Shown in pieces: positions 16,319-44,420 of a stretch of DNA of 52,666 bases. The DNA lies in NCBI GenBank assembly GCA_902580215.1, contig CACHJT010000007.1:1-52666 (forward strand). The letters are read 5' to 3'. The notes beneath the pieces are model-generated. The model was not told where the DNA came from, searched no databases, and saw only the letters and a program-made list of their open reading frames with translations. The translations under genes were made by a program, and so were the position numbers. The stretch's first letter is position 1; the number at the start of each line of letters is the position of its first letter. Source of the DNA: an uncultured Candidatus Actinomarina sp. (GTDB lineage Bacteria; Actinomycetota; Acidimicrobiia; Actinomarinales; Actinomarinaceae).

Positions 16319-16605
16319 TTTTTACCTTTAACTAACAATAAATGAATAGAGTATTTAAACAAACCAAAAATTTTTTTTAATTTCACATGTTCGCGAAAAC
16401 ATTTTTTAACTCGCGAAAAACAAACTAACTAGGATTCTATAACCACAATGAATTGTTGGTTATTTGATAGTTTTCAACATATAATCCTCAGTAAACATTG
16501 GGTTTTTCGAATTATTGATAAACCTTTTGAAAAATTAATATGTTTTTCACACTCTATGAAATTTTTAAACTGTCGTTTAAGTTTAATGAAGTTGTAAGCG
16601 GAGTT
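16319..16605. other. probable origin of replication (rpmH-dnaA intergenic region)
   Basis: A 287-base gene-free, AT-rich segment between divergent rpmH and dnaA, the classic oriC site. It holds an A/T tract at 16366-16382, two TCGCGAAAA motifs exactly 20 bases apart (16391 and 16411), and an imperfect inverted repeat at 16441-16461 (AACCACAAT and ATTGTTGGTT). I find no exact DnaA box TTATCCACA; the nearest is TTTTCAACA at 16471-16479, matching at 7 of 9 positions. The dnaA and rpmH promoters must also lie here. The origin function is inferred from synteny and from the strand switch. Confidence 0.8.
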
Positions 16606-42904: not shown

Positions 42905-43435
42905 ATGTTTGATTTAAAAGATGGGGATTTAAAAATCGCAAAAGTATTGTGGAACATAGCAATTCCATTATTCCTTGCAGCACCTGTAGCTTTTTTTGCA
43001 GGAATTGAGTTTCCTTTTGGCTTTTTTAATTTGTTTATGTCCGTTGCAACTTATTACGCATTAAAACTGTGTACAGATGCTGAGAAGTCTTTGATGACTC
43101 CTTTTTATCTATTTTTTCTTGGGAGCGGCGTAATTGACGCCTTTGCACAGGGAAACACTATTGCTTATGGTACAGAGTATGATATTTACTCTCCAGGTTC
43201 ACACATTATGTTTATGATGTTTTTACTATCTTCATACTGGGGGTTCAAATCTCTTATTCCAAACTGGGCAAGAATCGCAGTACTGATTGCTGGTATAAGT
43301 CAAATAGTTGCTTCTTATGCATCACTAATTGACGACACAGCTTTACATGACATTGCTGATACAGGTGCTTTTCTAATGCTGTTCTTTTTATTTGCAGTTA
43401 GAAATGCAGTTGTTGATGCTGCAAAAGGTAGCTAA
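42905..43435 (+). CDS. multi-pass membrane protein, 176 aa
   Basis: About five hydrophobic segments, starting after MFDLKDGDLKIAKVLWNIAI. Preceded by AAAGGAG, a strong ribosome-binding site. A central GSGVIDAFAQGNTIAYGTEYDIYSPGSHIMFMMF contains Asp, Glu and His that could bind something in the membrane. No family recognised. It is followed directly by the promoter of the first small RNA. Confidence 0.5.
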   Translation: MFDLKDGDLKIAKVLWNIAIPLFLAAPVAFFAGIEFPFGFFNLFMSVATYYALKLCTDAEKSLMTPFYLFFLGSGVIDAFAQGNTIAYGTEYDIYSPGSHIMFMMFLLSSYWGFKSLIPNWARIAVLIAGISQIVASYASLIDDTALHDIADTGAFLMLFFLFAVRNAVVDAAKGS

Positions 43436-43438
43436 AGC

Positions 43439-43493
43439 TCGCGAAAAATACATTAGTAAATCTCTTGCATAAGAACAAAAACTAACGTATATT
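43439..43493 (+). promoter_or_regulatory. promoter of small RNA A with upstream TCGCGAAAA motif
   Basis: TCGCGAAAA (43439-43447), then TTGCAT (43465-43470), a 17-base spacer, and TATATT (43488-43493). The same elements with the same 17-base spacer recur at copy B (44109-44163). TCGCGAAAA overlaps the stop region of the preceding gene and also occurs twice in the origin region. Confidence 0.7.
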
Positions 43494-43500
43494 TATAGAA

Positions 43501-43585
43501 CACTATCGGAAAAGAAATCGCAAGATAGAAAAGAAGATAGAACAGAAAATCCCGAAGGGTCGCAAGATCAATCGGGATTTTTGCT
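43501..43585 (+). ncRNA. small RNA, copy A of a two-member family
   Basis: About 85 bases. A CTATC/GATAG pair (43503-43507 with 43536-43540) encloses the hairpin ATC-GCAA-GAT (43517-43526). Then a ten-pair stem AAAATCCCGA with TCGGGATTTT (43546-43555 with 43572-43581) has a 2-by-2 internal loop and an inner hairpin GGTC-GCAA-GATC (43558-43569), and ends in TTTTTGCTTTT as an intrinsic terminator. Copy B has the same plan with changed bases that keep pairing. Function unknown. Confidence 0.75.
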
Positions 43586-43586
43586 T

Positions 43587-44066
43587 TTAGTTGAGGTTTT
43601 TCTCGTATAAATAGTTATCAATCCAAACATCATCTAATTTACCAATCTTTTCTCTGACGCCAACTTGTCTAAAACCATGTTTTTCAAAAAATGTTTTTGA
43701 TGGAGTGTTTTCTGTAAAAAGCTGTGCCTGTATTGTCCAATACCCTGATTCTCTTGCTTTTTCTTCTAAGTGTTTATACAACTTGCTACCAATATGATGT
43801 TGCTTGTGATCAGGATGAACGTATATTGAAATCTCACCGACACCTTCATAGGCACATCGACTTGATACTTTGCTTAATACAATCCAACCAAGGACACTAT
43901 TTTCACTTTCAAACACAAACGCATTGTCGGAATCAATTTTTTTTATCCATTGAATATAATCATTAGGCGGGGAAGTCTCGAATGTTGCTACTTTAGTATC
44001 GATACCCAATTGATAGATCATCTTAATATCGGGCCAGTCCGACTCTTCTATTTTTCTTACCCCCAC
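43587..44066 (-). CDS. GNAT acetyltransferase of the phosphinothricin-type (Pat) group
   Basis: A 159-residue protein reading VATFETSPPNDY, then EISIYVHPDHKQHHIGSKLYKHLEEKARESGY, the acetyl-CoA loop with QHHIGS in the Q-x-x-G-x-G position, and EKHGFRQVGVREKIGKLDDVWIDNYLYEKNL, the typical end of Pat-like enzymes. In this group the acceptor is often an amino acid or small amine. It lies opposite the two small RNAs, between them. Confidence 0.85.
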   Translation of the reverse strand: MGVRKIEESDWPDIKMIYQLGIDTKVATFETSPPNDYIQWIKKIDSDNAFVFESENSVLGWIVLSKVSSRCAYEGVGEISIYVHPDHKQHHIGSKLYKHLEEKARESGYWTIQAQLFTENTPSKTFFEKHGFRQVGVREKIGKLDDVWIDNYLYEKNLN

Positions 44067-44108
44067 ATTTAAATGATATTCAAATTTATTAAAATAATGT
44101 ATAAAAGT

Positions 44109-44163
44109 TCGCGAAAAAAACTAAACAAAAAATCTTGCCAAAGTATCAAAAATACAGTATTTT
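44109..44163 (+). promoter_or_regulatory. promoter of small RNA B with upstream TCGCGAAAA motif
   Basis: TCGCGAAAA (44109-44117), TTGCCA (44135-44140), 17-base spacer, TATTTT (44158-44163). Layout and spacing match copy A exactly in spacer length. Confidence 0.7.
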
Positions 44164-44168
44164 TATAT

Positions 44169-44256
44169 AACTATCAGAAATGAAGTCGCAAGACCGAATA
44201 GAAGATAGTAAGAAAATCCCGGAGGGTCGCAAGATCAATCGGGATTTTCACTTTTT
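44169..44256 (+). ncRNA. small RNA, copy B of a two-member family
   Basis: The same architecture as copy A: CTATC (44171-44175) pairs with GATAG (44204-44208) around GTC-GCAA-GAC (44185-44194), where copy A has ATC-GCAA-GAT, so one pair changes from A-U to G-C on both sides. The terminal stem AAAATCCCGG with TCGGGATTTT (44213-44222 with 44239-44248) contains GGTC-GCAA-GATC (44225-44236). A U-rich tail follows. Two pairs of changes that keep the structure support selection on RNA folding. Confidence 0.75.
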
Positions 44257-44420
44257 ATGGCCTTTTTTCTCTAAAAATAGCAAAAGACTCCCTGTGGCTG
44301 TAAATTTTTGTTTTATCGTCTTTAAAAGTGGCTCAAAGCACGAAAGGAAGTCCTACTTCTTATTTTAATATTCTTAAATTATTCTTTTAAAAACTACAAA
44401 AAATTCAATATAATTAAGTC

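Follow-up and report, generated by a model that had tools for sequence, protein, structure and literature searches.

The window, by which we mean the whole stretch of DNA analysed (52,666 nucleotides from an uncultured Candidatus Actinomarina sp.), carries two plus-strand cassettes 670 bases apart, with TCGCGAAAA at 43439 and at 44109. The earlier note had described them as two related small-RNA genes that share an upstream box, a -35/-10 pair with a 17-base spacer, CTATC/GATAG, a GNRA-capped hairpin, GGTC-GCAA-GATC within a terminator stem and a U-rich tail, and all of these elements were present in both cassettes, with promoters reading TTGCAT-17-TATATT and TTGCCA-17-TATTTT. The acetyltransferase that it had placed between them on the opposite strand is a GNAT gene (minus strand, 43587-44066). 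This gene resembles ArsN1 family A (NCBIfam NF040503) at 133.9 bits, below the cut-off of 170. The features of the two cassettes are as follows.

43438..43447, plus: copy A activator-like box CTCGCGAAAA; TCGCGAAAA (at 43439) is present in 65/65 copies
43465..43470, plus: copy A -35 element TTGCAT, 17 bases past the box; TTG is so spaced in 63/65 copies
43488..43493, plus: copy A -10 element TATATT after a 17-base spacer, which among homologues is constant in length and variable in sequence
43500..43588, plus: copy A RNA, predicted transcript of ~88 nt, its 5' end placed from the -10 position; 114 bits, E 1.9e-19, with a covariance model built from the RNA's own family
43503..43540, plus: copy A hairpin 1, CUAUC/GAUAG, 9x9 purine rod and AUC-GCAA-GAU (RNAalifold, pair counts, register test)
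43545..43588, plus: copy A hairpin 2, predicted intrinsic terminator with GGUC-GCAA-GAUC tip and U-rich tail (shuffle folding, RNAalifold, pair counts)
44108..44117, plus: copy B activator-like box TTCGCGAAAA, with TCGCGAAAA at 44109 (box counts in the window and in 65 copies)
44135..44140, plus: copy B -35 element TTGCCA (promoter alignment of copies)
44158..44163, plus: copy B -10 element TATTTT after a 17-base spacer (promoter alignment of copies)
44168..44255, plus: copy B RNA, predicted transcript; 105.9 bits, E 8e-18, with the same own-family model
44170..44209, plus: copy B hairpin 1, ACUAUC/GAUAGU, purine rod and GUC-GCAA-GAC (shuffle folding, RNAalifold, pair counts, register test)
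44212..44255, plus: copy B hairpin 2, predicted intrinsic terminator with U-rich tail (shuffle folding, RNAalifold, pair counts)

A small-RNA family of Candidatus Actinomarina

Copies A and B are 79% identical across ~152 bases (E 1.5e-31, search within the genome). The folding z-scores of both RNAs lie between -4.3 and -5.1, and none of 200 dinucleotide shuffles equalled them. By these comparisons the cassettes are paralogous small-RNA genes, with predicted products of ~88 nt. That the genes possess promoters and terminators of their own, as the earlier note proposed, was borne out by 46 distinct homologues, by covariation and by a constant promoter geometry.

A covariance-model search of relatives, the check that the note had suggested, recovered homologues that are confined to the genus Actinomarina. 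The model, based on the 46 distinct sequences, found the RNA in 36 of 42 Actinomarina genomes at 1-4 copies each; it matched none of 353 genomes from the rest of the class, nor any of 396 others sampled across the phylum, a sample that overlaps that of the class, and these large-scale searches ran with stricter filters that very diverged relatives may have escaped. The genus genomes that gave no match are incomplete (51-87%), and in one of them, G001, the end of a contig cuts the copy. With a DNA search, 32 of 59 relatives proved to carry the RNA, every one a member of this genus; 65 copies were extracted in total. The window is assigned to Candidatus Actinomarina because loci with the neighbouring lysA-like gene at 96-98% protein identity come mostly from Actinomarina single-cell genomes. 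Searches for viral copies by terminator pattern returned none, the promoter pattern occurred in 35 viral contigs with no covariance-model match better than E 0.2, and phage records held no copy of the RNA. Because the family is confined to one genus, its structure goes without the test that a distant homologue would provide.

At the cassettes, Rfam 15 gave only chance-level matches (E ~1 or worse, far below gathering thresholds), in agreement with the earlier statement that no named family has this plan. The sole match in the window to reach an Rfam threshold is an AdoCbl riboswitch (RF01482, 24596-24729, 57.3 bits). Among the papers listed in literature searches, none described an Actinomarina twin-hairpin RNA or a transcription factor for TTCGCGAA. 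Judged by sequence comparison, this is a previously uncatalogued RNA family of the free-standing small-RNA kind; its body plan is unusual and its predicted regulon unexpected.

Fold, covariation and the proposed purine rod

The RNAalifold consensus for the alignment of 46 sequences consists of an outer stem, a three-pair stem closed by a GNRA loop, and a terminator stem of 11+4 pairs that has a GNRA loop of its own; 6 of its 23 pairs are changed on both sides. With one outer pair added to the count, 96.4% of cells are standard, and there are 37 double-change cells, where shuffles give 12.9 and slid registers 11 at most. The pair probability of the outer stem is ~0.75 or above in all 46 sequences. 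An unpaired second hairpin in relatives, or a lack of homologues, had been named beforehand as evidence against the small-RNA reading; neither was encountered.

Covariation in the outer stem takes the form of C-G to U-A, while the terminator stem offers the series A-U to G-U to G-C and G-C to G-U to A-U; in sequence L120 there is a single change from U-A to C-G, with a GAGA loop. These outer-stem and terminator-stem changes are better evidence of covariation than the change from AUC/GAU to GUC/GAC in hairpin 1, to which the earlier note had drawn attention. That change is real and is carried by 19 sequences, but it counts as few events because it largely follows the split between A and B paralogues. 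The GNRA loops keep their pattern while varying in sequence (GCAA and GAAA in hairpin 1; GCAA, GGAA and GAGA in hairpin 2), which is the behaviour of GNRA tetraloop hairpins, and this variation would fit a structural cap equally well as a docking loop. Within one genome, hairpin 1 of A and hairpin 1 of B differ at 7.9 positions on average and hairpin 2 at 1.5, compared to 3.8 and 2.3 positions for same-type copies between genomes. Hairpin 1 is, on these figures, paralogue-specific, and hairpin 2 common to A and B.

An open reading frame of 62 aa (44180-44368) that begins inside copy B appears in a mechanical ORF list, and a small protein gene was considered on this account. Neither its start nor its frame is conserved, no frame is open throughout the sequences (lengths 87-89), each frame is interrupted by a stop in more than half of them, and sequence changes follow base pairing; we regard a coding function as hardly credible and the candidate was rejected.

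Between its two short stems, hairpin 1 has nine bases on each side, nearly all of them A or G. Aligned antiparallel at register 0, these tracts give no G.G cell: 183 cells are G.A or A.G, 144 are A.A and 63 are A-U or wobble. A slide by one base in either direction turns 70 or 19 cells into G.G. T stands opposite A in 62 of 64 cases at register 0, and one-base slides lower this to 47 of 63 and 32 of 54; one position is G.A in 34 sequences and A.G in 9. Slid registers are mostly worse, but a slide of three is also free of G.G, so base composition alone is not unique to register 0, which was chosen by the T-faces-A count and the flanking stems. The symmetric "internal loop" looks like a continuous helix of A.A, A-U and tandem sheared G.A pairs, the non-canonical pairs being read from register and composition, which the bias of an A/G-rich loop could partly mimic. 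A kink-turn would place a bulge of three bases beside tandem G.A pairs; here the G.A pairs are tandem, the two sides of the loop are equal (9x9), and no asymmetric bulge was found. Since the purine loop appears to pair with itself in register, hairpin 1 would be rod-like, with almost no unpaired seed left. In the consensus fold only the 2-4 base linker is clearly unpaired, and the purine tracts behave as paired by sequence comparison.

The same tracts are the basis for an antisense interpretation, in which the repeated GAAAAGAA tracts of hairpin 1 would pair with UUCUUUUC in mRNAs, offering two near-identical sites per RNA. The rod purines, if open, could indeed pair with pyrimidine tracts in mRNAs, the two tracts are near-identical and sometimes change together (GAAAATAA on both sides in L116, L130 and L137), and multi-copy siblings are common among base-pairing sRNAs. 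In register, however, the same changes convert G.A to U-A and A.G to A-U, as for opposed strands, and the RNA starts and ends in hairpins joined by a linker of 2-4 bases. The earlier note had thought a protein or RNA partner likely; we consider antisense action possible and rather unlikely, and favour a protein-binding regulatory RNA, as the sequence comparisons suggest.

Promoter geometry, neighbouring genes and the shared box

The promoter is as constant as the fold. TCGCGAAAA is kept in 65/65 copies, TTG follows exactly 17 bases past it in 63/65 and is off by one in the remaining two, and the -10 element, TAnnTT, comes after a 17-base spacer of poor sequence conservation. A spacing pattern of 21-24 bases from box to TTGC had no match, because the true spacing is 17. 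In 39 genomes the arrangement of box, 17 bases and TTG is nearly exclusive to the RNA loci; one extra occurrence, in genome G030, has no RNA match. In most copies hairpin 1 starts ~8 bases past the -10, which implies that the first stem lies almost at the very 5' end of the RNA. The family was thus found to have the attributes of a free-standing bacterial small-RNA gene: constant promoter geometry, an intrinsic terminator and no coding capacity.

At locus 1, A comes first and then B; the interval between them is empty or holds a GNAT gene, a P450-like gene, a gene for an NHL-repeat protein, or genes of other kinds. A third copy, of A type, follows metK-metY(-metX) at locus 2 and precedes a 5'-3' exonuclease-like gene and tilS. 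(Pfam and NCBIfam were applied to the genes of the window, to the gene divergent from nrdJ and to the WhiB-like gene; other gene names were read from sequence.) The third copy lies directly past metK-metY(-metX) in many genomes (L111, L112, L114, L116, L117, L125 and others). A link of the RNA to methionine was rejected: metK-metY-metX is a conserved address for third copies, and we do not rely on it because locus 1 copies have no such neighbours. The A and B copies flank an exchangeable gene (window 43430-44260; L111-L150) as if direct repeats aided cargo exchange.

The variable cargo at locus 1, together with the duplication of copies as whole units (L113), would suit a cis element, that is, a leader, an attenuator or a mobile repeat at gene borders that aids the exchange of the gene between copies. 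Against this, the identity of the downstream gene changes and its strand may be the opposite one, every copy retains the box, promoter, fold and terminator as a set, and the A and B forms of hairpin 1 remain distinct. We give this interpretation little credence; cargo exchange may be a by-product.

Outside the RNA genes the box is rare. TCGCGAAAA occurs 4 times in the window, compared to 0.27 expected, and only 7 times in the whole of the genome: at the two RNAs, twice between rpmH/rnpA and dnaA, upstream of one WhiB-like gene, upstream of nrdJ, and once in the interior of a coding gene. Other box sites that were fetched lie inside unrelated ORFs. The shared sites are as follows.

16390..16419, plus: a pair of TCGCGAAAA boxes spaced by exactly 20 bp, in the rpmH/rnpA-dnaA interval; so paired in 27/30 dnaA loci of the genus
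L160 844-970 (own genome C19:844): nrdJ promoter with the box and ACACTATATTTAGTGT
L153 1208-1510 (own genome C8:35971): TTCGCGAAAAAAA upstream of a WhiB-like gene

The remaining 3 of the 30 dnaA loci have one box each. A conserved TTAACTAG-like stretch follows the box pair in the dnaA region. Comparison of 15 nrdJ and 15 WhiB-like upstream sites revealed that at nrdJ the box lies 16 bases ahead of TTGAAA, nearly the geometry of the RNA genes, and is followed by the NrdR-like palindrome ACACTATATTTAGTGT. The WhiB-like promoter, TTTACA/TTTGCC-17-TAnnGT-6-ATG, is apparently leaderless, with the box ~11 bp, or one helical turn, nearer the start. This geometry suggests an activator acting from one face of the helix. 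Since the dnaA region, nrdJ and the WhiB-like gene have the box in common with them, the RNAs seem to belong to a small activator regulon connected with replication and dNTP supply, a link absent from the earlier note.

Of the genome's three WhiB-like genes, the box-bearing one has WhiB3 as its nearest relative of solved structure (E 6e-16). As in auto-regulated promoters of the WhiB3/WhiB7 type, the gene carries the box in its own promoter; unlike them, the Actinomarina box lies ~47-58 bp upstream of the start and not against the -35, so that it is no more than a guess that a WhiB-like protein reads the box.

Proposed mechanism and relation to known RNAs

Comparison of sequences establishes the gene family along with its fold, its promoter geometry and the box that it shares. 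Beyond them, the reading that we favour, as somewhat more likely than not, is that of a free-standing, transcribed RNA, driven by an activator together with nrdJ and the WhiB-like gene, and working through a protein. Housekeeping (sigma-A type) RNA polymerase would start ~7 bases past the -10, aided by an activator on TTCGCGAAAA, centred ~58 bases upstream of the start, and the same activator would serve nrdJ, the WhiB-like gene and probably the dnaA/rpmH region. Transcription would end at the intrinsic terminator, giving an RNA of ~88 nt that is two hairpins and little else: hairpin 1 a GNRA-capped purine-rich rod of tandem G.A and A.A/A-U pairs that would carry the A/B specificity, and hairpin 2, the terminator with a second GNRA tip, the common part. 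Protein binding, as a decoy or scaffold, seems the most likely mode of action because the molecule presents two GNRA-capped rods and no evident unpaired seed.

A more specific proposal is tentative, and we think it more likely wrong than right: the RNA pair might be the post-transcriptional arm of a replication-linked regulon in a cell that ranks among the smallest free-living ones. A single TTCGCGAAAA activator would then drive the RNAs along with nrdJ, the dnaA region and the WhiB-like regulator, and replication or growth would be tuned by a protein for which the RNAs act as titrant or scaffold.

Actinomarina is an abundant, extremely streamlined ocean bacterium, whose published genomes have a median intergenic spacer of 2-3 bp and very few paralogues (PMC7771536). 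For such a genome to retain a 155-bp RNA gene, complete with a putative activator site, in as many as four copies argues for an important function of the RNA. The family would also serve as a marker for Actinomarina activity in ocean metatranscriptomes, and the conserved box ties a small RNA to dnaA and nrdJ in a way that is directly testable.

Among known systems, the Actinomarina RNA resembles multi-copy sibling small RNAs in being a short free-standing gene with 1-4 paralogues, a sigma-A type promoter and a 3' terminator hairpin; it differs from them in having no evident seed, two GNRA-capped hairpins, a purine rod and no Rfam 15 match. It might share with 6S RNA (RF00013) and mycobacterial Ms1 the character of a growth-linked structured RNA that acts on a protein, and a functional stand-in for them, binding RNA polymerase, would agree with its multiple copies and with a box common to growth-related genes. 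The Rfam 6S model, positive in 5 of 14 controls, had no match in 34 genomes of Actinomarina and the class; the missing 6S is weak evidence for a stand-in, since it holds for the whole class sample. Set against that role, the RNA is about half the length of 6S RNA, no RF00013 match was found, and the consensus fold has no long duplex with a central open bubble; we consider it quite improbable. CsrB/RsmZ differ in their repeated GGA loops, whereas the loops here are GNRA, with GGAA just once in the aligned sequences and no Rfam match to that family. The likeness to CsrB/RsmZ is a candidate one, in the sense of how the RNA may work: by offering its hairpins to a protein.
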